DNA of 64,000 nucleotides, taken from Paracoccaceae bacterium. Lineage in GTDB: Bacteria > Pseudomonadota > Alphaproteobacteria > Rhodobacterales > Rhodobacteraceae. Positions 6,816 to 31,447 of this stretch are shown here, one piece after another. Position 1 is the stretch's first letter; every line of letters starts with the position of its first letter. Location: assembly GCA_014323795.1 (NCBI GenBank), contig JACONK010000001.1, forward strand, positions 65,138 to 129,137. Direction: 5' to 3'. The translations under genes were made by a program, and so were the position numbers. The notes under the pieces are model-generated. The model did not search any database, was not told the DNA's origin, and saw only the letters and a list, made by a program, of their open reading frames with translations.

Positions 6816-7044
6816 GACAATCGATCCGGCTGATCTCCTGAAGGTCCAGGATATGGGGCTTTGCGTTTTTAGCCCGCCTGCAGGTGCTGGTTTTACCGGT
6901 TCCGGTCCTTGAATCAGCTGCCGCGAACGGGCCATACCTGTTTGTTGTGCTGAAACGTTCAAATCCCCGCTTCTGTCCCTGTCGTAAGTGCCGGTTTCCA
7001 TCCGCCTTGTCTTCAATGTCAAGGCAAGGGTCGGCGGCAGTTCT

Positions 7045-8055
7045 TCAGCCAAAATATCCGGCGTAGATGGGGTTGATCGTTTCTTCTTCGAAAAGGCTGG
7101 AAACGCTGGTGCCATCTGCGATATTCAGAATCGCCTGAGCCAACACGGGTGCCAAGGGCACAATACGGATCCTGTCGCAGGCATTTACTCGGGGCGTGGC
7201 CTTGATGGAGTCGGTAATCGTCAGGTGCTTCATCACCGAGTTTGATATCCGCTCTACCGCCGGGCCGCTCAGAACACCGTGGGTGATATAGCCGTGCACT
7301 TCCCTGGCACCGCTTTTTATCAGTGTCTCCGCCGCTTTGCAAAGGGTGCCCGCCGTGTCGCAGATGTCATCGACGATGATACATCGGTGGCCCCTGACGT
7401 TGCCGATAACTGTCATCTCTGCCACTTCACCGGGCCGGTCGCGACGTTTGTCAACAATAGCGAGTTCTGCCCCGATGCGTTTGGCCAGTTCCCGCGCCCG
7501 GGCTACACCGCCCACATCCGGTGACACCACCATCACATCCGACAGGTCGCCGAAATGGTGTTTCACATCTATCGCAAAGACCGGCGCAGCATAGAGGTTA
7601 TCGACGGGGATATCGAAAAAACCCTGGATCTGGGTGGCGTGCAAATCTATCGTCAGAATCCGCTCCACCCCGGCCTGAACGATCATGTTCGATACCAGCT
7701 TGGCAGAGATCGGTGTGCGCGCCTTGCTGCGCCGGTCCTGGCGGGCATAGCCAAAGTAGGGGATGACCGCCGTGATCCGGCCGACGGATGATCGTTTCAG
7801 CGCGTCGGCCATGATCAGCAGTTCCATCAGGTTGTCGTTCGCCGGGTTCGAGGTCGACTGGATGATGAACATGTCCTTACCGCGGACGTTTTCGAACACC
7901 TCCACGAAAATCTCGGCATCATTGAAGCGCTCGATACGCGCATCGACCGGTTTCACTGTCTTGCCGCAGTACATCGATATGTGGTAGGAAATGGCGTCTG
8001 AGAGGATACGATTGGAATTCCCGGCAATGAGCCTGGGTTCGATCAAAGTTCCCAT
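7045..8055 (-). CDS. prs: Ribose-phosphate pyrophosphokinase
   Basis: This cytosolic enzyme makes PRPP from ribose 5-phosphate and ATP for nucleotide, histidine and tryptophan synthesis. The 336-residue protein has the N-terminal [14 protein letters not shown] segment, the ATP-contacting [14 protein letters not shown] loop, and the PRPP-binding loop [14 protein letters not shown]. The open frame extends 56 codons further upstream, but that extension is unlike the family; the ATG at 8055 gives the conserved start [13 protein letters not shown]. It is divergent from pheT. Confidence 0.95.
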
Positions 8056-8630
8056 TGAGCGATGATCCCCGGGTAAATTGTTCCGCTGTTTTCTTTTCAG
8101 CGGATTGTGATGCGCATAACAAAGGATAAGGGGATTGCATAGACCCGGCGAACACGTATCAGATGGCGTGACAAAATTGCCTGAATCGGGGGTAGGTACC
8201 TTGGCAAACTGGTGGCCCGTCACACCTCCACCTGCCGGGCCGGGGACCGGGACGGCAAAGCCGGACGTCGGTCGGCTTTAACCCGGCACTTGCCTACAGG
8301 GGTATGCTGACTTACCGGCGAATAACGTTTCCGGGGCCAGGAACACATCGGTGCGCATGATGTCTGTCTGGACGGGCCAAGATGACAGGGCCCCCCTGTG
8401 CGCAGCTTCGGCTCTGGTTTGCGGTCAGCATATTTCATGCCTGGCGACCTTGCGTCGGGCCGGGCGTGGGATCTGACCTCTGACCGGGCGCACAATTACC
8501 AGATACAGTGCGCCGCGGCTTCCATCATTTACCTGTTCCGATCAAGGCACCGCGGGTCATGGCACCCTTCAAATCTGCCAAACCCTGTGCTAACTGACGC
8601 GATAAGCAGACGACCGACGGACTGACCTCG
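8056..8630. other. 575-bp divergent region between prs and pheT
   Basis: No protein-like frame or RNA gene was recognised. pheS, which in many bacteria lies directly before pheT, is not here and not elsewhere in the window. Promoters for both flanking genes presumably lie in this stretch, but none stands out except the small prs-leader repeat. Confidence 0.5.
8083..8103 (-). promoter_or_regulatory. Small inverted repeat in the prs leader
   Basis: CCGCTG and CAGCGG are separated by 9 bases, 28 bases upstream of the prs start. It could be a small leader hairpin or operator. No family is recognised. Confidence 0.25.
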
Positions 8631-11042
8631 ATGAAATTTACCCTGTCCTGGCTGAAAAAGCACCTCGACACGCAAGCCTCGCTTGATGATATCCTCTATG
8701 CACTGACCGACCTCGGGCTTGAAGTGGAAGGCGTGGAAAACCCGCTCTCCGCGTTGAAGGAGTTTACGGTCGCTTACGTGCAGTCGACAGAACAGCATCC
8801 GAATGCGGACAGGTTGCGAGTGTGCCAGGTGGAAACCGATGAGGGTGTGAAGCAGATTATCTGCGGGGCACCCAATGCACGGGCAGGTATCCATGTGGTT
8901 CTGTGCAAGCCGGGGGTATATCTGCCAGGCACAGACACGACCATCGGTGTGGGTAATATCCGTGGTGTGGTAAGCCAAGGCATGATGGCCTCTGAACGGG
9001 AACTCCGGCTATCGGACGAACATGACGGGATCATTGAACTGTCCGGGGCACCGAAGGTCGGATCGTTCTTTATCGACTGGCTGAAAGAGAATAAGCCGGA
9101 AAAGGCAGATCCGGTGATTGAAATCGCAATCACGCCAAACCGGCCTGATGCGCTGGGTGTGCGCGGCATTGCGCGCGACCTTGCAGCGCGCGGCCTCGGA
9201 GTATTGAAGGATGTGGCTGTGGCGCGGATTGAGGCGGCTTTCACGGCGGACCTGAGCGTCAGCATCGACAAAGACACGTTGCAGGATTGCCCCCATTTCG
9301 CCGGGCGGCTGGTCCGGGGCGTGAAGAACGGCCCCTCCCCCGGGTGGATGCAGGACGCGTTAAAGGCGATTGGCTTGCGGCCGATTTCCACGCTCGTCGA
9401 TATCACCAATTACCTCACCTACGATCAGAACCGCCCGCTGCACGTCTTTGATGCCGACAAAGTGCAGGGCAACCTGCGGGTCTATCGTGCGACCGGCGGG
9501 GAGACGCTGACCGGACTCGACGACAAGGACTACACGTTCGGGCCCGGCATGCTGATCATCGGCGATGATCGTGGTGCCGAAAGCATCGCAGGTATCATGG
9601 GCGGGGCGGAGACCAGCTGCACGGAAGAGACGGTCAACGTCTTCATCGAAAGCGCGTATTGGGCACCGGCCCGCGTGGCGGAAACCGGGCGGAAGCTGAA
9701 GATCAACTCAGATGCTCTTTACCGTTTTGAACGTGGCGTGGACCCGGCGTTTACGGGTCCGGGTCTTGACCAGGCCGTGCGGATGATCCTCGACCTCTGC
9801 GGCGGCGAGGCATCTGAACTGATCGTGGCCGGGGCCGCACCTGATACGACGCGGAGCTACAGATTTGATACCGCACGGGTGTCCTCACTCCTGGGCATGG
9901 ATATCCCCGAGACAGAACAGTGCCAGGTGCTGTCAGCACTGGGTTTCTCACTAATTGGAAATGATGTGACCCCGCCGCCCTGGCGACCGGATGTTCAGGG
10001 CTCTGCCGATCTGGTGGAAGAGGTGGCGCGCATAGCCTCTCTCACCAGGCTCGAAAGCAAGCCTATGCCGCGGCACAAACCCGGCGTGGCAAAAGCCATA
10101 CTGACACCGATGCAAAAGCGGGAGGCCCGGGCCCGCCGCACGATTGCGGTGCTGGGTTATAATGAGTGTGTCACCTACAGTTTCATTGATGCGGCGGGTG
10201 CTGCGCTCTTCGGCGGGGGCGAAGATGCACTGGCTCTGGCAAACCCGATTTCGATAGATATGAGCCATATGCGCCCGTCCTTGCTGCCGGGATTGCTGGC
10301 GGCGGCGGTGCGTAATCAAGTGCGGGGCTATGCGGATCTTGCGCTGTTTGAGGTTGGCCCGGTTTTTCACGGACAGATGCCGGAAGATCAGGAACTGCTG
10401 GCAACCGGTTTGATGGTTGGCCACACTAGCCCGCGCAACCCTTACGGCACCCGGCGCGTGGTGGATGTGTTTGACGCGAAGGCAGATTGTGAGGCGGTGC
10501 TGGCTGCAATAGGTGCACCGCAGAAGCTGATGGTGCGGCGCGGTGCGCAGGCCTGGTGGCACCCGGGCCGGTCGGGTAAACTGTCGCTCGGCCCGAAGAA
10601 CGTGCTCGCCGGATTTGGCGAACTAAATCCCGTGGTTCTTAAACATTACGGCATCAAGGGCCCGGCTGTGGCCTTTTCGGTGCATGTGGCAAGGCCACCT
10701 GTGCCGCGCAGGTCAGGTGCCACGCGCGGTGCGTTGACCGTATCTGATGTGCAGGCGGTGGAGCGGGACTTTGCTTTTGTCGTGGATGCGGATGTGGCAG
10801 CACTTGACCTGATCACCGCCGCCAAAGGGGCTGATAAGGCACTGGTGGCGGAGGCTTATGTCTTTGACCAGTTTGCAGGTGATGCCGCCGAGGCACAGGT
10901 CGGCACGGGCAAGAAATCCATCGCTATCAGTGTGCGATTGCAACCGGCGCAGAAGACCCTGACAGATGCGGAGATTGAGGCCGTGGCGGCGAAAGTGATC
11001 AGGAATGTTGCCAAAGCCACTGGCGGAACCCTGCGCGACTGA
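8631..11042 (+). CDS. pheT: Phenylalanine-tRNA ligase beta subunit
   Basis: This is the beta subunit of the alpha2-beta2 synthetase that charges tRNA-Phe. The 803-residue protein starts with the typical MKFTLSWLKKHLDT. Domains in order: an EMAP-like tRNA-binding OB fold at about 40-150 (NADRLRVCQVETDEG, ICGAPNARAG), the B3/B4 editing domain at about 200-380, the B5 domain near 400-470, the catalytic-like core at about 480-680, and the C-terminal anticodon-binding FDX-ACB domain at about 700-803. Length is normal. The ribosome site is weak. pheS is absent from the window. The 3' end abuts decayed IS sequence. Confidence 0.95.
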   Translation: MKFTLSWLKKHLDTQASLDDILYALTDLGLEVEGVENPLSALKEFTVAYVQSTEQHPNADRLRVCQVETDEGVKQIICGAPNARAGIHVVLCKPGVYLPGTDTTIGVGNIRGVVSQGMMASERELRLSDEHDGIIELSGAPKVGSFFIDWLKENKPEKADPVIEIAITPNRPDALGVRGIARDLAARGLGVLKDVAVARIEAAFTADLSVSIDKDTLQDCPHFAGRLVRGVKNGPSPGWMQDALKAIGLRPISTLVDITNYLTYDQNRPLHVFDADKVQGNLRVYRATGGETLTGLDDKDYTFGPGMLIIGDDRGAESIAGIMGGAETSCTEETVNVFIESAYWAPARVAETGRKLKINSDALYRFERGVDPAFTGPGLDQAVRMILDLCGGEASELIVAGAAPDTTRSYRFDTARVSSLLGMDIPETEQCQVLSALGFSLIGNDVTPPPWRPDVQGSADLVEEVARIASLTRLESKPMPRHKPGVAKAILTPMQKREARARRTIAVLGYNECVTYSFIDAAGAALFGGGEDALALANPISIDMSHMRPSLLPGLLAAAVRNQVRGYADLALFEVGPVFHGQMPEDQELLATGLMVGHTSPRNPYGTRRVVDVFDAKADCEAVLAAIGAPQKLMVRRGAQAWWHPGRSGKLSLGPKNVLAGFGELNPVVLKHYGIKGPAVAFSVHVARPPVPRRSGATRGALTVSDVQAVERDFAFVVDADVAALDLITAAKGADKALVAEAYVFDQFAGDAAEAQVGTGKKSIAISVRLQPAQKTLTDAEIEAVAAKVIRNVAKATGGTLRD

Positions 11043-12501: not shown

Positions 12502-13020
12502 ATGGAGCCTGACCCCAGGCAGATGATATGGCACCTGCGCAACGATGGCCATCTGATCAATAAAAAGCGGATCAAGCGTTTGATGCGGCTCATGGGATTG
12601 ATGCTGATTTACCGGGATATCAATACCGCAAAGTCCGCGAAAGGTCACAGAACCTATACGTATGATTGGGCCGTGCGCAACACGGCCCAATCAGGTTTGG
12701 GCGGCGCATATCACACCTGCATTCTGACGCGACGGGGCTTTCTGTATCCGGTTGCGATCATCGACTGGTCCACGCGCAAAGTGCCGGCATGGCGCATCTC
12801 AAACACATTGGAATCTGATTTCTGCGTCGAATTTTTGGATGAGGACACGAACACATACGGCATGCCCGAGATCATGAACACCGATCAAGGATCGCAGTTC
12901 ACAACCTGCGCCCAGGATAGACCGGCCACATCGATCAAGCGTAGACATCCCGATGGACGACAAGGGCTGGTTCCTGGACAACATATTCGTGGAACGGCAC
13001 CGGCGATCTTTAAAAAAGGC
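12502..13020 (+). pseudogene. Second IS3-family transposase OrfB remnant, truncated and frameshifted
   Basis: The frame from 12502 gives RKRIKRLMRLMGLM-like sequence (KKRIKRLMRLMGLMLIYRD), RRGFLYPVAIIDWSTRKVPA, WRISNTLESDFCVEFLDE and PEIMNTDQGSQFTT. These are the DDE integrase core of IS3-group OrfB; the two aspartates at IIDWSTRK-type and NTDQGSQF positions are visible. A frameshift near 12910-12950 moves the match to another frame (MDDKGWFLDNIFVERHRRSL). The element stops abruptly near 13020, 4 bp from the end of the antiporter gene on the other strand. OrfA, the N-terminus of OrfB and the 3' end are missing. The open frame runs on to 13749 only because it is antisense to the antiporter gene. 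Confidence 0.88.
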
Positions 13021-13023
13021 ACG

Positions 13024-14718
13024 TCACATAAAGCTTACCAGCATCACGGCCAGCAACAGAATCGCAATCCATATCACCATCGCTCCCGTGGGCCGGACAC
13101 GGGCGATGCGGCCATCCGGCCCGTGTGCCCGGTAAAGTATCGCTACCATGACGTCACAGCATCGCCGGACAAAATCCGTTGTGCCTCCCCAACCCCCGGA
13201 AACCGCCTGCGCCACCCGGGCGAACACGGCAGGCCCGGCCCTGCGATAGAGCCAATCTGTATCCAGGTTTACCGACTTCAGTTCCGGCGGGTAGAGGCCC
13301 GCACGCATCAGCACGGTAAAAGCGAGTGCAGAGAACATCAACAACTGCAACTGGTTTATCACATGCGTCGCCGTGTAGGGATCGTATTTTACCTCGTAGG
13401 GCAGAAGGGCATAGAGAGGGTGCGGATAGCAGCCTATGGCGATACAGACAAACGCGGTGAGGCCCATGGCCAGCAGCATGTTCCACGGCGCCTCTTTTGG
13501 GCGCAGGCCGCTGTCGTGGGCGAAGAACGCAAAATAGGGGATCTTGATGCCGGAGTGATGAAATACGCCTGCGCTCGCAAACAAAAGGATCGCCCAGACG
13601 ATATGATATTCCGCTTTGCCCGCCGCGCTCAGAATCAGGGCCTTCGATACAAAACCCGAAAAAAGCGGAAAGGCGGAAATCGAGGCGGCACCGACCAGGC
13701 AAAAGATCATCGTAAGCGGCATGGTCTTGTAAAGCCCGCCGAGCTCTGACCCTTTCGCCGTGCCGGTGCGGAAAAGCACGGCACCTACCGACATGAAAAG
13801 GAGTGCCTTGTAGAGGATATGCGCAAACGCGTGCGCTGCCGTGCCGTTGAGTGCAAGCTCCGTGCCGATACCCACGCCCACAACCATGAAACCCAACTGA
13901 TTGTTGAGCGAATAGGCCAGCACCCGGCGCAGGTCGTTTTCAATAACTGCATAGAAGATCGGGAAAAGCGTCATGATCGCGCCAATGTAGATCAGTAATT
14001 CCGTGCCCGGAAAGGATCGCGCCAGCGCGTAAACCGCGAGTTTCGTTGTAAAAGCGGACAGAACCACGGTGCCCGTAACGGTAGCTGCCGGGTAGGCATC
14101 CTGCAGCCAATTGTGCAAGAGCGGGAAGGCGCATTTGATACCGAAGGCAAGGAAGATCAGCCATGTGGCCAAACTGCCAAGCTGCATCCGGTCAAAGGTG
14201 ATGGATCCGGTTTCCGTGTAGAAGAGACCCGCACCAGCGATCAGGATCACACCGCTTGCCACTTGCACCACCAGGTAGCGCATACCGGTGAAGTAGGCCC
14301 CGGTTGTGCCGCGTGCCCAGATTAGGAAGACGCTGGCAATCGCCGTACCTTCCCAGAAGAAGAAAAGCGAAATCAGGTCGCCGCAGAACACCGCCCCGAT
14401 GGCGGAACCGGAATAGAGCAGGGCTGCCGACTGTTGTATCGTGTCCCTGATATGCCAAGCGTAGAGCATGGCCAAAAATGCGGCGAGCGAGAAGATCACG
14501 CCAAAGATTATAGACAGTTTGTCAATACGCAGGAGCGTGAGCTCGAGCCCCATCACCCCGATTTGCCCGTAGCTGCCCATTGGCAGCGGCCACATCAGTG
14601 CGGCACCCACGACGGGCACGATGCAAAGTGCAGCGGATCGGCCGTGGCCCTTTGGCAGAAAGGGAATCAGAAGCGCACCCGCGATATAGGCGAGAAAGGG
14701 AGGGATGAAATCAATCAT
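13024..14718 (-). CDS. Mrp/Mnh-type antiporter subunit D paralogue 3
   Basis: This 564-residue integral membrane protein belongs to the proton-conducting family shared by Mrp D subunits and NuoL/M/N. About 14 hydrophobic segments can be seen. Diagnostic pieces are FFFWEGTAIASVFLIW (the conserved Glu in TM5), GIKCAFPLLHNWLQDAYPA (the Lys-containing TM7 region), and NDLRRVLAYSLNNQLGFMVV. It should conduct protons or Na+ across the inner membrane within a multi-subunit complex. Its start overlaps the upstream small gene by 8 bases. It is the last gene of the operon, and IS remnants begin 4 bp beyond its stop without damaging it. Confidence 0.85.
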   Translation of the reverse strand: MIDFIPPFLAYIAGALLIPFLPKGHGRSAALCIVPVVGAALMWPLPMGSYGQIGVMGLELTLLRIDKLSIIFGVIFSLAAFLAMLYAWHIRDTIQQSAALLYSGSAIGAVFCGDLISLFFFWEGTAIASVFLIWARGTTGAYFTGMRYLVVQVASGVILIAGAGLFYTETGSITFDRMQLGSLATWLIFLAFGIKCAFPLLHNWLQDAYPAATVTGTVVLSAFTTKLAVYALARSFPGTELLIYIGAIMTLFPIFYAVIENDLRRVLAYSLNNQLGFMVVGVGIGTELALNGTAAHAFAHILYKALLFMSVGAVLFRTGTAKGSELGGLYKTMPLTMIFCLVGAASISAFPLFSGFVSKALILSAAGKAEYHIVWAILLFASAGVFHHSGIKIPYFAFFAHDSGLRPKEAPWNMLLAMGLTAFVCIAIGCYPHPLYALLPYEVKYDPYTATHVINQLQLLMFSALAFTVLMRAGLYPPELKSVNLDTDWLYRRAGPAVFARVAQAVSGGWGGTTDFVRRCCDVMVAILYRAHGPDGRIARVRPTGAMVIWIAILLLAVMLVSFM

Positions 14719-24940: not shown

Positions 24941-25005
24941 GTTTGGAAAACATCCTGGTCGCACATCGGTCCCGGTTTTGCAAAATACTTTCAGACCGCG
25001 CAAAA

Positions 25006-25428
25006 TCAGTTGTCGCGGTGGACGCGTTCCTTGCGTTCGTGACGTTCCTGTGCCTCCAGGCTGAGCGTGGCGATGGGACGCGCGTCGAGCCGTTTCAGCG
25101 AAATCGGCTCCCCCGTCGCGTCGCAGTAGCCGTAGGATCCGTCATCAATCCGGCGCAATGCGCTGTCAATTTTGGCCACCAGCTTGCGCTGCCGGTCCCG
25201 TGTGCGCAGTTCCAGCGCACGATCAGTTTCCTCTGACGCACGATCAGCGGCGTCGGGGATATTGCGTGCGCCCTCCTGCATGTCCTCGATAGTTTCCCTG
25301 CTTTCAGCCAGCAGCGCGGCCTTCCAGTCCTGTAGCTTGCGGCGAAAATACGCCAGCTGGCGTTCATTCATGAATGGTTCGTCTTCGGCTGGTCGATAAT
25401 CGGCATCCGGAATGTCTTCTGCCTGCAT
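25006..25428 (-). CDS. dksA: DksA/TraR-type RNA polymerase-binding transcription factor, single-cysteine type
   Basis: DksA binds the secondary channel of RNA polymerase and, with ppGpp, adjusts rRNA and amino-acid promoters. The 140-residue protein has the coiled-coil arms (RQLAYFRRKLQDWKAALLAE and the DRALELRTRDRQRKLVAKID arm) around the acidic tip DAADRASEETD. The globular domain reads GYCDATGEPISLKRLDARPI, so only the first of the four zinc-finger cysteines is kept. A single-cysteine DksA is known from Rhodobacter sphaeroides. The ATG at 25428 has AGGGAGA upstream; an earlier ATG at 25458 does not. Confidence 0.9.
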   Translation of the reverse strand: MQAEDIPDADYRPAEDEPFMNERQLAYFRRKLQDWKAALLAESRETIEDMQEGARNIPDAADRASEETDRALELRTRDRQRKLVAKIDSALRRIDDGSYGYCDATGEPISLKRLDARPIATLSLEAQERHERKERVHRDN

Positions 25429-25589
25429 CCTTGTCTCCCTAAGGTCTGGTTCCGGCACGATAGCCTTTTCTTCATCTTTACCCGATTATTCGGTCCGGGA
25501 AGTATTGTCACAGGGAATTCATCATGTATTGCGGGTTTGTGAACGCCCCCCTAAATTGCCGCCAAAGTTTTAAGGAGTGATCGCCCCCC

Positions 25590-26429
25590 ATGAAATTCGA
25601 AGGCAGCAAGGAATATGTTTTGACCGACGATCTGGCCGTTGCAGTGAACGCCGCCATCACGCTGGAACGCCCGCTGCTTGTGAAGGGGGAACCGGGCACC
25701 GGGAAAACCGAACTCGCCCGCCAGGTCGCCGCGGCCCTGGGTTTGGATATGCTGGAATGGAATATCAAATCCACCACCAGGGCACAGCAGGGACTTTATG
25801 AATATGACGCAGTCAGCCGCCTGCGGGACAGCCAACTGGGCGAAAAGCGTGTGCATGATGTCAGGAACTACATCAGGAAGGGCAGGCTCTGGCAAGCGTT
25901 TGATGCGGACAAGAAGCATGTCCTGCTGATCGATGAGATTGACAAGGCGGATATCGAGTTTCCGAATGACCTGTTGCAGGAGCTTGATCGGATGGAATTC
26001 CACGTATACGAAACCGGAGAGACGATTAAGGCCCGGCAGCGCCCGATTGTGATAATCACATCAAACAACGAAAAAGAGCTGCCGGATGCGTTTCTGCGTC
26101 GCTGCTTTTTCCACTACATCCGTTTCCCCGACGGCGACACGATGAAGGCCATCGTGGATGTGCATTTCCCCGGTATCAAACCGGCACTGGTCAGCGCGGC
26201 CCTGACCCAATTCTACAATATCCGCGAAACCCCGGGTCTGAAGAAGAAACCGTCGACGTCGGAAGTGCTCGACTGGCTGAAACTTCTGCTGGTTGAGGAT
26301 ATGGACCCCGCCGATATGAAGCGTGACGGCAGGGATTCGCTGCCAAAGATGTACGGGGCACTTTTGAAGAATGAACAGGATGTGCATCTGTTTGAACGGC
26401 TGGCCTTTATGGCCCGGGGGCACCGGTGA
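25590..26429 (+). CDS. MoxR-family AAA+ ATPase (CoxD-like)
   Basis: MoxR ATPases act as chaperones, usually with a von Willebrand factor A partner, to mature metal-enzyme or membrane complexes. The 279-residue protein has Walker A GEPGTGKT at 33-40, Walker B LLIDEID at 112-118, sensor 1 near IIITSNNEKELPDAFLRRC with the arginine finger, and a helical lid. The usual partner (coxE-type gene) lies 2.3 kb downstream, separated by an inserted gene. The last four bases overlap the GTG start of that insert. AAGGAG lies upstream of the ATG. Confidence 0.92.
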   Translation: MKFEGSKEYVLTDDLAVAVNAAITLERPLLVKGEPGTGKTELARQVAAALGLDMLEWNIKSTTRAQQGLYEYDAVSRLRDSQLGEKRVHDVRNYIRKGRLWQAFDADKKHVLLIDEIDKADIEFPNDLLQELDRMEFHVYETGETIKARQRPIVIITSNNEKELPDAFLRRCFFHYIRFPDGDTMKAIVDVHFPGIKPALVSAALTQFYNIRETPGLKKKPSTSEVLDWLKLLLVEDMDPADMKRDGRDSLPKMYGALLKNEQDVHLFERLAFMARGHR

Positions 26430-28195
26430 ACGTACCCGCCCGCCAGGCGGCGGAAACGGATCAACTCCTTCTGCTGCCCATACCGCCCCAAAACACAAAA
26501 ACCGCCTTCCTTAAAGGGCTGCGATCCAGGGGGCAGGCAAAATACAGCAGATACAGCGGGCTGCCTTTACGCTATGCAGGTGGCAAAAGCCTTGCTGTCG
26601 GCCATATTATAGAGGGTATACCGGGCCATATCAGTCACCTGGTATCACCGTTTTTTGGCGGCGGATCGGTGGAGATTGCCTGTGCCCGGGAGCTCGGTAT
26701 CAAAGTGCAGGGGTATGACCTGTTCGACATTCTGGCGACCTATTGGCAGGTGCAGCTGAAATCACCGAAGCGGCTGGCAGACATTCTGTCCGCATGGCCC
26801 CCTGACAGCCCGACCTACAACGCCGTCAAGGAACGCCTGAAAGCGCACTGGCGTGGAGAGGCGATGATAACGGATAAAACGGAACTGGCGGCGCACTACT
26901 GGTTTAATCACAACCTGTCCTATGGTCCGGGGTTTCTGGGGTGGATGTCAAGGATTTATCAGCAGCCGGACCGGGCGGCCCGTCTGATTGACAAGGTGCG
27001 CACCTTCCGCTGCCCCGGTCTGTCCGTTAGCCAGGGCAGCTTTGAACGGGTTATTCCGCGTCATAACGAGACATTCATGTATTGTGATCCGCCCTACTAT
27101 CTTGGCGGTGATTCAAAGATGTTCCGGGGTATTTACCCGCAACGCAACTTTCCCGTGCATCACAACGGATTTCCGCATGAGCTGCTGCGTGACCTGCTGG
27201 CCAAACACAAGGGCGGCTTTGTTATGACCTATAATGATTGCAGCACGATTCGTGAATGGTATACCGCCATGGGCTGCACTATCAGGGAGGTGCGGTGGCA
27301 ATACACCATGGGGCAGGGCGAAACCCGGATCGGGGCCAACCGCATTGAAAACGGAACCCGCAGCCATGTGAAAGAATCGCATGAATTGCTGATCGTCAGA
27401 CACGGGGAGGGACAGATGGCAAAACGGGCCATGACATCGGACCATGCCAGCAGGGTAAAAACCGGTGGCCACAAAAATGAGCAACATTTTGCCGATGTCA
27501 TCGGCGGGCGGGTTCAGCGCGGAACGCACACCGACAAGAAGGATGTGATTGACGGGCAGGACAGGGCGCATTCGGTCAAAGCCGGCAAATGGTGGCAGAT
27601 CTTCCTGTACGGGAAAACCCGCCTGGAAACCAACACCATTTTTCAGGGGATCGGGGAGGTGGCCAATATCATGCTGGATTGCCTTGACGCCTATCCGTCA
27701 ACCTTTGATGAGTACAAGGCAGACAAGCATGCCGCGAAAGAGGCTTTGCGCCCGCACATGCGGCGGCTGAAAGAGGCGTTGGATAAGGACAATATCTTCA
27801 GGGCCATGCTGGATAAGGCCATGTTCGACGGCGGCAACGCAGATTACCTGTCAATCTATGACGGGAAGAGCACGGATCCGCCCTGTAAAAAAGTTTTCCA
27901 CATCTTCCGCAAGGATGATGTTGTGGATGCCCTGCACCAAGACCTGGATGTGCGCAACTCCAGGGCAATCGGGCGCGGCACCACGGCGGAACAGAAGGTC
28001 GTGTTTTGGTCGCGTATGCACGGAAAGCAGGTGGGCGAAATCGAGGACCGGCACGACAGCCCGCAACATTATCGGGAAATGAAAATGCGCCTGAACGGCC
28101 CTTTGATCCTGAAAATACTGCGCCATGATCAGGTGCCGAAGGATGTGCGGCCCCAGGCGGCGGCATACGGAAAGGCGGCGCGGCTTTTTAATTAA
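26426..28195 (+). CDS. DNA adenine methyltransferase fused to a probable restriction-nuclease domain
   Basis: The N-terminal part, about residues 41-325, is a D12-class (Dam/DpnII-like) N6-adenine methyltransferase: PLRYAGGKS around 47-55 (motif X), PFFGGGSVEIA at 75-85 (motif I, SAM binding) and YCDPPYYLGG at 219-228 (motif IV, catalytic DPPY at 221-224). The C-terminal 260 residues are not part of that family. They read GGHKNEQHFADVIGG at 347-361, DKKDVID at 370-376 and HSVKAGKWWQIFLYG at 382-396, an E...D...SxK pattern compatible with a PD-(D/E)xK-type endonuclease; GEIEDRHDSPQHYREMKMR near the end recalls type II enzymes. This is inferred from motifs only. The GTG start overlaps moxR's stop and has GGGGGC upstream. 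It sits between moxR and its usual partner, so it was probably gained by transfer. Confidence 0.75.
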   Translation: MNVPARQAAETDQLLLLPIPPQNTKTAFLKGLRSRGQAKYSRYSGLPLRYAGGKSLAVGHIIEGIPGHISHLVSPFFGGGSVEIACARELGIKVQGYDLFDILATYWQVQLKSPKRLADILSAWPPDSPTYNAVKERLKAHWRGEAMITDKTELAAHYWFNHNLSYGPGFLGWMSRIYQQPDRAARLIDKVRTFRCPGLSVSQGSFERVIPRHNETFMYCDPPYYLGGDSKMFRGIYPQRNFPVHHNGFPHELLRDLLAKHKGGFVMTYNDCSTIREWYTAMGCTIREVRWQYTMGQGETRIGANRIENGTRSHVKESHELLIVRHGEGQMAKRAMTSDHASRVKTGGHKNEQHFADVIGGRVQRGTHTDKKDVIDGQDRAHSVKAGKWWQIFLYGKTRLETNTIFQGIGEVANIMLDCLDAYPSTFDEYKADKHAAKEALRPHMRRLKEALDKDNIFRAMLDKAMFDGGNADYLSIYDGKSTDPPCKKVFHIFRKDDVVDALHQDLDVRNSRAIGRGTTAEQKVVFWSRMHGKQVGEIEDRHDSPQHYREMKMRLNGPLILKILRHDQVPKDVRPQAAAYGKAARLFN

Positions 28196-28519
28196 GGGTT
28201 CGCGCAACAGGGTATATAATTCCTCTGACAAATGGCGTAATCTGTTCACTTGGCCTGACCGTGTGCCCCGCGGATCTGGCCCGATGCGCCATCAGCCGCA
28301 CTGGTTCGGTGCCGCTGGCACACAGCAATATTTTGGCAGGAAACCTTTGGCTGCAAGGTTGCGACGCCGACGCTGGTACGGCAGTACACGTGCTGAAATG
28401 ATACGACCGCTTCTGCTATCTTTCCGCCCCGGGCGACATGTACGCCCAGGGATCAGGTGTTTAGCCGCGCCGACGGCAGAAAAAGGGCGGACGTTTCCGC
28501 GTTTGCCGGGAACCGGTGC
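28196..28519. other. 324-bp gap after the methyltransferase-nuclease gene
   Basis: No gene or terminator was recognised. It may carry the right junction of the inserted gene, but no direct or inverted repeats matching the left junction were noticed. Confidence 0.4.
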
Positions 28520-28690
28520 ATGATCGGCGTGGTAACGGCCGTGCTTGGTGCGATGCTCGGCTGGATGCGGGCGCGCAAGCTCGGCGGCAACCGCCTGGAT
28601 TGTTTGCAATATGCCAGTGTCTTTGCCATCATCGGCTTCGTTCTGGGCCTTGGGGTGACCATCGCGCTTGACCATCAGGGCGTGTTCTGA
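28520..28690 (+). CDS. Small two-helix membrane protein
   Basis: The 56-residue protein has two hydrophobic helices separated by a basic loop (RARKLGGNRLDCLQY). The loop and the second helix ASVFAIIGFVLGLGVTIAL resemble small Rhodobacteraceae membrane proteins annotated loosely as hypothetical; the function is unknown. The ATG at 28520 is chosen because the longer frame from 28457 adds an unrelated polar leader. It lies 31 bp upstream of the coxE-type gene. Confidence 0.65.
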   Translation: MIGVVTAVLGAMLGWMRARKLGGNRLDCLQYASVFAIIGFVLGLGVTIALDHQGVF

Positions 28691-28721
28691 CCTTTCCGCC
28701 CGCCTGAGGGCAGGAGCAGCC

Positions 28722-29906
28722 ATGTTTTTGGTTTTTTTTGAAGCATTGCGCACCGCGAAAGTGCCGGTATCCCTGCGGGAATACCTGTCTTTTCTGGAAG
28801 CGGTAAAAACCGGCCTGGTGACCTACAATGTGGAGGGGTTTTATTACCTTGCCCGGACGACCATGGTAAAGGACGAACGCAACCTGGACAGGTTTGATCA
28901 GGTTTTTGCGCATGTTTTTAAAGGTATGGAAGACATCAGCACAGATGCCATCCTTGAGGCCGCAAATGTGCCGCACGATTGGCTGGAAAAGCATGCCGAA
29001 AAGCACCTGAGCGCACAGGAAAAAGCCGAAATCGAGGCCCTTGGCGGCTTTGACAGGCTGATGGAAACACTAAAGAAGCGGCTGGAAGAACAAAGGAAGC
29101 GCCACCAGGGCGGAAACAAGTGGATCGGGACCGCAGGCACATCTCCCTTCGGGGCTTATGGCTTCAACCCGGAAGGTGTGCGCATCGGGTAATCCGAAAG
29201 CCGGCACCGGATGGCGGTCAAAGTCTGGGATAAGCGGGCGTTTCGCAATTTCGACGATTCGGTGGAATTGGGGACGCGCAACATCAAGGTTGCGCTCAAA
29301 CGTCTGCGCCGCTGGGTGCGGGACGGTGCGGAAGAAGAGTTTGATCTGTCACACACTATCCGGTCAACCGCGAAAAACGGATACCTGGACATCAAGACCC
29401 GGCGGGGGCGACGCAATGCGGTGAAGGTGCTGATCTTCCTTGACGTGGGCGGGTCAATGGATGCCCATGTGCAGCTGGTAGAAGAGCTGTTTTCTGCTGC
29501 ACGGGCCGAATTCAGAAATCTGGAATACTACTACTTCCACAACTGCCTTTATGAATGTGTCTGGCGCGATAACCGGCGCCGGTGGTCCGAACAGACACCG
29601 ACCCGGGATGTGCTGTGCACCTATGGTTCTGATTACAAATGTATATTTGTGGGCGATGCGGCGATGAGCCCTTACGAAATCGACTACAAGGGCGGCGCAA
29701 ACGAGCATTGGAACGACGAACCCGGCAGGGTGTGGCTGTCCCGTGCGATCAGCCGATGGCCCGACACTATCTGGATCAACCCGGTGCAGGAACAGTATTG
29801 GCAGTACAGCCAATCCACACGGATGATCCGGGGGATTTTTGCTGATCACATGTATCCCATGACGCTGAAAGGCATTGAGGCAGGCATGAAAGCACTGGGG
29901 CGTTAA
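28722..29906 (+). pseudogene. CoxE-type von Willebrand factor A protein, split by one in-frame TAA
   Basis: The family protein is about 395 residues and works with a MoxR ATPase. Here 28722-29189 encodes the N-terminal helical part (MFLVFFEALRTAKVPVSLRE through FGAYGFNPEGVRIG). It is followed by TAA at 29190-29192. The same frame continues SESRHRMAVKVWDKR and then the VWA-type domain with FLDVGGSMDAH (metal-site DxGxS), YYYFHNCLYE, and FVGDAAMSPYEIDYKGG to 29906. Total length with the stop is 395 codons, exactly as expected, so a single C to T change (CAA to TAA) is the simplest reason. Restart at ATG 29211 could still make the C-terminal half. Confidence 0.85.
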
Positions 29907-30154
29907 GCGGGATTATTCGGGACGGGGCTGTGGCGGAAGGTTGTGGCCCGGATTTTCGGGCCGTGCCGATGCCCCGGTGCGTGAAAGGCCGGCCCGCATC
30001 CCGCGCCACATTCGGCCCGTTGGCCCTGTGCCGCGGGGTGACCCTGCCTGCCACACCCTGCGCCCCCGGGCAAACCGGGCGTCGGCGCAGGGCCATCCCC
30101 TGTTCAAACTTCGGCACGGCGATTGCCGGCCGGGGCGCGCTGTCGCGCAACCCA

Positions 30155-31447
30155 TCAAGCCGTTATGAAATTCTGCAGGCCACCAAGAACATTTGTGAAG
30201 TCGTCGCGACTCACGTCCCACAGGGTCAGGACGTTGCTGTTCAGGGTGAGCGTGGTGCTTTCATTCGTGCCATCCCCGTCCCTGTCGTGGGCGGCCATGG
30301 TTACATCACTAACATCCAGACCCTTGTATACGATGGAATCATTGCCCAAGTCAAAATCGGTGATAACCGTGCCATCGGCCCAGTCCTCTCTGAAGACGAA
30401 GAAGTCGAGATCAAAGCCATCTTCCTTGGCACCGCCAGTCAGCGTGTCCGCCCCGCCTTCGCTGACGAGCCGGTTGTTCTGGCCATCGCCGGTCAGGGTA
30501 TCGGCAAAGCGGGAACCGCGCACATTTTCGATGCTGTAGAGCCGGTCACCTTCGGCGGTGCCGCCGGAGTTCACCGTGCCATCAACCAGGCTGACGGTCA
30601 CGCCTTCACCGGAATCGCGGTAATCCGCCGTGTCCCGGCCGCCACGGCCACGGATCTCATCGGCCCCACCCCCGCCGCGAAAGAAGTTCTTGTTGTTTGC
30701 ACCAAAGCCACCGATACCCTTGAGCACATCGTCATGGGCGGTGCCGATGATGCCCTCTATACTCTTCAGTTTGTCGCCCTGGGCATGGCCGCCCCTGGCG
30801 GTGACAAATCCCAGGTCATCCTGTTCGCCTGCAAGGTTCACCCGCACACCGGCGTTCGAGGCGCTGTAACTGATCACATCGCGGCCATTGCCGCCATCGA
30901 TGGTATCGGCCCCGCGCCCGCCCGAAAAGACGTTCCTGCCACTGTTGCCAGTGAGGATATCAGAGAAGCGGGAGCCGGAGATGTTCTCAAAATTGCTGAT
31001 CACATCGCCCTGGGCGTGGCCGCCGCTGGCGGTGTTGTTACCCAAGTCTACGGTGACCGCGGCGTCGGAGGTGCTGTAATCCAGCCGGTCGTTACCCCCG
31101 CCGCCATCCATCGTGTCGCCACCGGCACCGCCCCTTAACAGGTTGTTGACGTCATTCCCGGTCAGGGAATCGCCGAAGGCAGAACCAAGAATGTGCTCAA
31201 TACCCTGCAGAATATCGCCCTGGGCATGGCCACCGACGCCGGTGCCATTCCCCGCGTTGGCCAGGGTCACGGTAACACCGACGTCAGAGGCCGTGTAATC
31301 CGCCCGGTCGCGGCCGGCACCGCCGTTCAGCGTATCGGCACCGGCACCGCCAGCCAAAATGTCCCTGCCGGCACCGCCGTTCAACGTGTCGTCCGCATTT
31401 GTGCCGTTCAGCGTATCGTTCCCGTCAGTTCCCGTAAAAAGTGGCAT
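30155..31447 (-). CDS. RTX-type calcium-binding repeat protein, probably secreted
   Basis: The 430-residue acidic, glycine-rich protein begins directly with hemolysin-type nonapeptides (GTDGNDTLNG, GGAGADTLNGGAGRD). Four longer units follow, each with a DY(S/T)xS(D/N)xGVxVxL strand, a GGHAQGD or related turn, an IE(N/H)IxGSxFxDxLTG strand and a GGxGxD turn. The C-terminus (FVFREDWADGTVITDFDLGN) is like that of type I-secreted proteins. No signal peptide or catalytic domain is visible, so it is probably a surface, adhesion or matrix protein exported by a type I system located elsewhere. It is downstream of purC on the same strand. Confidence 0.85.
   Translation of the reverse strand: MPLFTGTDGNDTLNGTNADDTLNGGAGRDILAGGAGADTLNGGAGRDRADYTASDVGVTVTLANAGNGTGVGGHAQGDILQGIEHILGSAFGDSLTGNDVNNLLRGGAGGDTMDGGGGNDRLDYSTSDAAVTVDLGNNTASGGHAQGDVISNFENISGSRFSDILTGNSGRNVFSGGRGADTIDGGNGRDVISYSASNAGVRVNLAGEQDDLGFVTARGGHAQGDKLKSIEGIIGTAHDDVLKGIGGFGANNKNFFRGGGGADEIRGRGGRDTADYRDSGEGVTVSLVDGTVNSGGTAEGDRLYSIENVRGSRFADTLTGDGQNNRLVSEGGADTLTGGAKEDGFDLDFFVFREDWADGTVITDFDLGNDSIVYKGLDVSDVTMAAHDRDGDGTNESTTLTLNSNVLTLWDVSRDDFTNVLGGLQNFITA

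Follow-up and report, generated by a model that had tools for sequence, protein, structure and literature searches.

A putative fused methyltransferase-nuclease gene in place of two operon genes beside moxR in a Paracoccaceae bacterium

Background

How does one gene come to encode both the modification and the cleavage half of a restriction-modification (R-M) system, and how does such a gene come to lie in the moxR-coxE operon of a Paracoccaceae bacterium? Both questions are raised by a single open reading frame (ORF) within a stretch of 64,000 nucleotides of contig JACONK010000001.1 (assembly GCA_014323795.1), hereafter the window, that joins an adenine methyltransferase (MTase) to a probable restriction endonuclease. 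An earlier interpretation made from the letters alone (the sequence-only reading) took it for a compact, self-contained R-M gene that had landed in a housekeeping operon. We propose, with a probability of about 0.8, that an ordinary type II R-M pair, a D12/alpha-class MTase gene followed by a nuclease gene, became one reading frame when the MTase stop codon was lost, giving a type IIC-like polypeptide with the MTase (M) first and the nuclease (R) second; that the nuclease start was kept and free nuclease is probably made as well; and that the gene was acquired horizontally, in place of a GNAT and a DUF2927 gene.

The source bacterium appears to be sponge-associated, its metagenome-assembled genome (MAG; 2,578,993 bases in 37 contigs) being tied by passages of PMC7313196 to a study of a Lamellodysidea sponge. 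Passages of another paper describe sponge metagenomes as enriched in defence features (PMC5099237).

Results and discussion

One reading frame with two domains

The ORF has the frame, strand and length first given for it and begins with GTG, and the four-base overlap proposed from the letters is present as well, GTGA being shared with the moxR stop (Table 1). In its N-terminal part, residues 50-295 match the Pfam family PF02086 (E 2.3e-24; 87 bits against a gathering cut-off of 22) and residues 24-325 the PADLOC profile MTase_II PDLC03281 (E 3.5e-104), while the top-scoring solved MTase structure for the fused protein is 7m6b (E 1.6e-10). All three motifs named by the sequence-only reading, AGGK, FFGGGS and DPPY, were found at their proposed residues. 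We take FFGGGS to be the S-adenosylmethionine-binding motif and DPPY to be the catalytic one, and the FGGG-type motif precedes DPPY, as membership of the D12 (alpha-class) MTases requires. The domain is at most 73% identical to stand-alone MTases of other bacteria. Elsewhere in the same genome there are three more distant D12-type MTase matches (L043, L044 and L045; 25-27% identity), one of them with an internal TGA.

For the C-terminal half, which the sequence-only reading had guessed to be a PD-(D/E)xK nuclease, profile libraries named no family, but structure prediction agreed with the guess. Searches with the whole protein found no convincing family for the C-terminal ~260 residues in Pfam, NCBIfam, PHROGs or PADLOC; the best match there, a PHROGs 'acetyltransferase' at residues 443-496 (E 0.007), was judged unconvincing. 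A Pfam and PADLOC search with ten nuclease rows returned nothing convincing, and a PDB sequence-profile search up to E 10 gave chance-level matches only, with no restriction enzyme among them; similarity to HinP1I-like endonucleases is not detectable by these PDB profiles. The predicted structure, however, has a PD-(D/E)xK restriction-endonuclease fold, with HinP1I as the best match among the families that VIA-align listed, and by this model the C-terminal half falls within the HinP1I-like fold. The fused protein was also aligned in full with the separate M and R proteins (A2), but nuclease rows seemed to fall on the MTase there, and this alignment was left out of the structure work. The pattern of E352, D373 and S383-V-K385 pointed out earlier is borne out by the ten full-length nuclease sequences (Table 1), and two of the invariant residues, D373 and K385, lie on predicted strands 43-45 and 51-56 of the model, respectively. 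In BFVD, the nuclease model is similar to uncharacterised cyanophage proteins (A0A1D8KQX4 and others), with E 1.6e-7 and a TM of 0.52 by query length.

Complete relatives carry the two halves as separate genes

A pattern scan of genome contigs with six peptide patterns, which is not exhaustive, gave 39 loci, all from MAGs, in Poribacteria, Chloroflexota, Pseudomonadota, Actinomycetota, Bacteroidota and Myxococcota. In six-frame analysis the MTase is an ORF of its own in every locus (broken over two frames in L038), and it is followed directly by a separate nuclease ORF of ~260 codons in seven: L001, L006, L009, L013, L014, L017 and L019. The nuclease gene is truncated or split in three others (L021, L030, L035), and no neighbouring nuclease was seen in 29, an observation of little weight for L012 and L015, whose contigs end less than 130 bases from the MTase. 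The nuclease profile was run against 28 genomes hosting these 29 loci (all but L016) and, as positive control, against that of L001. Three of the 29 genomes searched had a match: that of L001; that of L025, whose copy is truncated and contains a stop; and that of L008, which has a further complete M and R pair, L125. MTase and nuclease thus lie side by side, as expected of relatives of a type II system, in seven of the 39 loci plus L125, and the fusion was found in none of the 39 loci nor in L125.

Because M and R are separate genes in every complete relative found, we read the window gene as a type II pair of the ordinary kind that probably fused locally, and because these relatives keep the two halves as neighbours, the system looks as though it was caught shortly after fusion. 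Of the self-contained R-M gene proposed earlier, the single ORF with both domains stands; what does not is the idea of a single-gene kind, the other relatives being MTases with no nuclease or a truncated one.

On the full tree, the MTases nearest to that of the window are those of L002 (100/98) and L003 (98/92), in whose genomes the profile search found no nuclease match; among the R-carrying loci alone, the window pairs with L001 in both the M and the R tree. Nuclease presence is scattered over the MTase tree (eight changes for eight rows, not fewer than with shuffled labels; L038 left out), which is consistent with repeated loss or transfer, and in 398 genomes of the phylum the nuclease profile had no match outside the window's own genome. 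The data suggest that this genome and those of L002 and L003 come from the same sponge sample, and the distribution of the sequences suggests that the R-M cassette may pass from phylum to phylum among sponge-associated bacteria, some of them apparently from one sponge sample.

A rival explanation draws on this same distribution. The window gene may be a decaying remnant, perhaps an orphan MTase with a dead nuclease half, as in the many relatives without a nuclease or with a truncated one: the 29 loci (L012 and L015 near contig ends) and the three truncated or split copies, the scattering of the labels on the tree, and the decay of the surrounding operon described below all point this way. Yet the nuclease half is full length and retains 52 of the 52 residues that are invariant in the nine other sequences, D373 and S383-V-K385 included, and we consider a remnant unlikely, if deserving of some weight.

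Two of the loci have further features. L009 carries a single MTase gene and then two diverged nuclease copies in tandem (6963-8549). The L001 pair has a zinc alcohol dehydrogenase gene on one side and an esterase gene on the other, the latter preceded by two more genes, one of them of the DndB family (8402-9652; PF14072, E 1.2e-10).

The junction

In L001, the closest full pair, M and R share a reading frame, with one TAA between them, and the window reads through the equivalent stretch, HGEGQ and then MAKR, where an internal ATG corresponds to the start of the stand-alone nuclease genes. No MTase reads into a nuclease in the 37 loci with a motif-readable MTase end (the pattern used found no match in L022 and L028). 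Before the internal ATG stands a Shine-Dalgarno (SD)-like GGAGG whose duplex with the anti-SD sequence has an energy of -11.3 kcal/mol, second among 36 in-frame start codons and 14th among 580 codon positions. Such a score alone proves nothing, because the strongest value, -15.3, precedes an ATG within the nuclease (27671). Compared with the separate genes, the junction is most likely a loss of the stop with the nuclease's own start retained, and since the gene still contains that ribosome-binding site and ATG, free nuclease may be made alongside the fusion.

It could be argued that the fusion arose as an error of assembly or sequencing in a MAG, and that the real genome has separate M and R genes with the SD and ATG as the true nuclease start. 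All eight other complete pairs are indeed separate, the SD and ATG at the nuclease start are intact, and the window's genome appears to be a MAG in which the nearby coxE also has a frame anomaly. However, the frame is open across the junction, and M and R of L001 are already in one frame, one stop apart, so that a small natural change would be enough; an artefact seems to us quite improbable.

If the fusion of a type II pair is accepted, a wider claim can be put forward tentatively, at odds somewhat against it: the gene may be a natural transitional form from bipartite type II to single-chain type IIC systems, in the rare order of alpha-class MTase and then nuclease. It would yield two products, M-R and R, with no free MTase, inverting the usual protection-first balance, and the monomeric HinP1I fold of a nuclease family without a Pfam or PADLOC match may be why the fusion was tolerated.

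The probable site of arrival

A moxR gene is present at E <= 1e-60 in 18 of 33 genomes of the genus, the window's own included, and its surroundings were examined in 16 of the 17 others (in G001 they are cut by a contig end). A DUF2927 gene follows moxR in all 16, and a GNAT gene was detectable in 15 with the L069 query, from which the Pfam names are taken, once as a 36-residue fragment. Neither has significant similarity in the window (E limit 10); DUF2927 was not found in the window's own genome, in a search run without a positive control, and the GNAT query gave one weak match elsewhere in that genome (E 0.003). In 17 of 18 other genomes with a match, the CoxE frame is open over 394-405 codons; here it is interrupted. 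Judged from this gene order, the putative R-M gene occupies the position that GNAT and DUF2927 have in relatives, and the operon is decaying and no neat insertion site, since both genes are gone and coxE is broken.

These comparisons modify what was read from the letters. The neighbours are real, but moxR and the small gene/coxE pair, said usually to go together, are not adjacent in the genus relatives examined, where DUF2927, usually with GNAT, lies between them. Likewise, the gene seems indeed to have been acquired, but not by a simple insertion. The other 32 genomes of the genus, 21 of which reach 90% completeness with no more than 5% contamination, gave no match to the fused gene, and in a search of 101 genomes, own included, the gene was matched in its own and weakly in G047 and G075, which belong to other genera. 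If the gene were an old housekeeping member of the operon, as its position and translational overlap might indicate, it would be expected in close relatives; none of the 16 carries it and all have other genes at this place. We give that view hardly any credence, and the gene looks acquired.

The start of the gene may preserve a trace of what it replaced. In eight of the 14 relatives compared at this junction, the GNAT start overlaps the moxR stop as ATGA, at the place where the fused gene begins. Over the 44 bases after the moxR stop, the closest of the 14 GNAT starts, that of L048, agrees at 25 (57%). Among 220,116 positions compared in phase within the long open frames of the loci, 21 reached a score of 25, three self-matches excluded. 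That the fused gene begins on a GNAT remnant is suggestive only.

The flanks gave no convincing sign of a mobile element. Rfam had no match in 25000-30500, there is no tRNA in the window, and promoter and terminator matches are no more frequent than in shuffled sequence. Three two-copy direct repeats (15-17 nt, 81-87% alike) and one imperfect inverted pair were found, of a type that often arises by chance; one direct pair, at 26436 and 28696, is near both its ends. Farther away, the ORF at 12502-13749 has by eye an IS3-type transposase-like N-terminal part and is probably a fragment, and on the minus strand (30155-31447) a protein rich in GGxGxDx repeats resembles, by eye, RTX/hemolysin-type calcium-binding proteins.

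Table 1. Features of the fused gene and its surroundings in the window
Feature	Position	Strand	Basis
moxR (AAA ATPase), upstream neighbour	25590..26429	+	80-88% identity in 17 other genus genomes matching at E <= 1e-60
Fused MTase-nuclease gene, GTG start	26426..28195	+	ORF listing and translation; 589 codons
Possible GNAT-start remnant, ~15 codons, now start of fused gene	26426..26473	+	25/44 nt identity to L048 GNAT start
D12/alpha-class N6-adenine MTase domain, residues 24-326	26495..27403	+	PF02086, PDLC03281, homology
AGGK, residues 51-54	26576..26587	+	translation
FFGGGS, residues 76-81	26651..26668	+	translation
DPPY, residues 221-224	27086..27097	+	translation
Junction without MTase stop; SD-like GGAGG 27406-27410, 5-nt spacer, ATG 27416-27418	27404..27418	+	comparison with separate nuclease genes, anti-SD energy
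Predicted restriction endonuclease domain, HinP1I-like PD-(D/E)xK fold, residues 331-589	27416..28192	+	predicted structure
E352	27479..27481	+	kept in 9/10 full-length nuclease sequences
D373	27542..27544	+	invariant in 10/10
S383-V384-K385	27572..27580	+	invariant in 10/10; predicted strand 51-56 of model
Spacer, no recognised gene; expected DUF2927 end	28196..28519	+	no significant DUF2927/GNAT similarity in window
Small membrane-like gene, 56 aa	28520..28690	+	homologues upstream of coxE in 15/15 fetched stretches
coxE-like VWA gene, TAA at 29190-29192	28722..29906	+	Gln there in 14/15 fetched stretches, 15th cut by contig end

Proposed action and target

In the model that we favour, loss of the MTase stop codon would have produced a single M-R polypeptide. 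Its N-terminal half would methylate adenine in a short target site and so protect the chromosome, and its C-terminal HinP1I-like nuclease would cut the same site in unmethylated incoming DNA, with free nuclease probably translated beside the fusion from the internal SD and ATG. The gene would have arrived by horizontal transfer, probably within the sponge microbiota, and may then have taken the place of GNAT and DUF2927 in a decaying moxR-GNAT-DUF2927-small gene-coxE operon, where use of the GNAT start position would couple its translation to that of moxR. Motif counts in 464 kb of the genome indicate no single site: CTAG, TGCA, CGATCG and others are low, several of them in relatives too. Because the nuclease belongs to a family without a Pfam or PADLOC match and has an adenine MTase as partner, its target site is likely to be new for the HinP1I-type fold.

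Comparison with known systems

The closest known systems are the eight bipartite pairs (L001, L006, L009, L013, L014, L017, L019 and L125), from MAGs of Poribacteria, Chloroflexota, Acidimicrobiales and Alphaproteobacteria. Their MTases are 52-70% and their nucleases 38-63% identical to the halves of the window gene and they have the same order, M then R, with the genes adjacent or overlapping, but they are two ORFs where the window has one. Among phages, cyanophages carry an MTase at up to 46% identity; a 226-residue neighbour of a cyanophage MTase, when translated, seems by eye to be unrelated. In Synechococcus phage Sf-CH11 (L126), recorded as coming from the sponge Petrosia ficiformis, a GIY-YIG nuclease gene is immediately followed by an MTase of 45% identity. 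Two scans of viral contigs found three MTases (34% identity) with the MTase as query and nothing with the nuclease.

In fold, the nuclease is best matched by HinP1I (PDB 2FKC, 1YNM), with MspI and HhaI weaker, at a structure-aligned identity of 12-15% and with no PDB sequence-profile match. The nuclease motif is D-x9-SVK in the window and QxK in HinP1I. The site of HinP1I, G^CGC, contains no adenine, and the window target should therefore differ from it, if the partner is, as predicted, an adenine MTase.

In architecture, one ORF of a single MAG carries both domains, which may give it the two activities that type IIC/IIG enzymes have in one polypeptide. The usual layout of these enzymes is not the one found, the alpha-class MTase standing first and the nuclease second. 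From its sequence, we class the gene as a putative type II R-M system whose fused layout resembles type IIC, a classification that stops short of a proven type IIC enzyme. Passages of a 2014 paper describe type IIC enzymes as mostly having an N-terminal nuclease and a gamma-class MTase, and name BtgZI (GCGATG 10/14) as an exception, with an alpha-class MTase first and a nuclease last, cutting outside its site and having Q in its nuclease motif (PMC4081073). The window gene shares this domain order with BtgZI, known here by its layout, but for the window gene two-gene relatives can still be recognised.

That single-chain R-M enzymes can arise by gene fusion has been proposed, and shown with an engineered enzyme, in passages of PMC3039593: in the artificial RM.Eco29kI, the R and M genes of Eco29kI were fused with both activities kept, the nuclease at a third. 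As in the window, type II R and M genes were joined through removal of a stop; unlike the window gene, RM.Eco29kI is engineered, has the order R then M and carries a GIY-YIG nuclease. A natural fusion whose bipartite relatives are one stop codon away makes this step testable.
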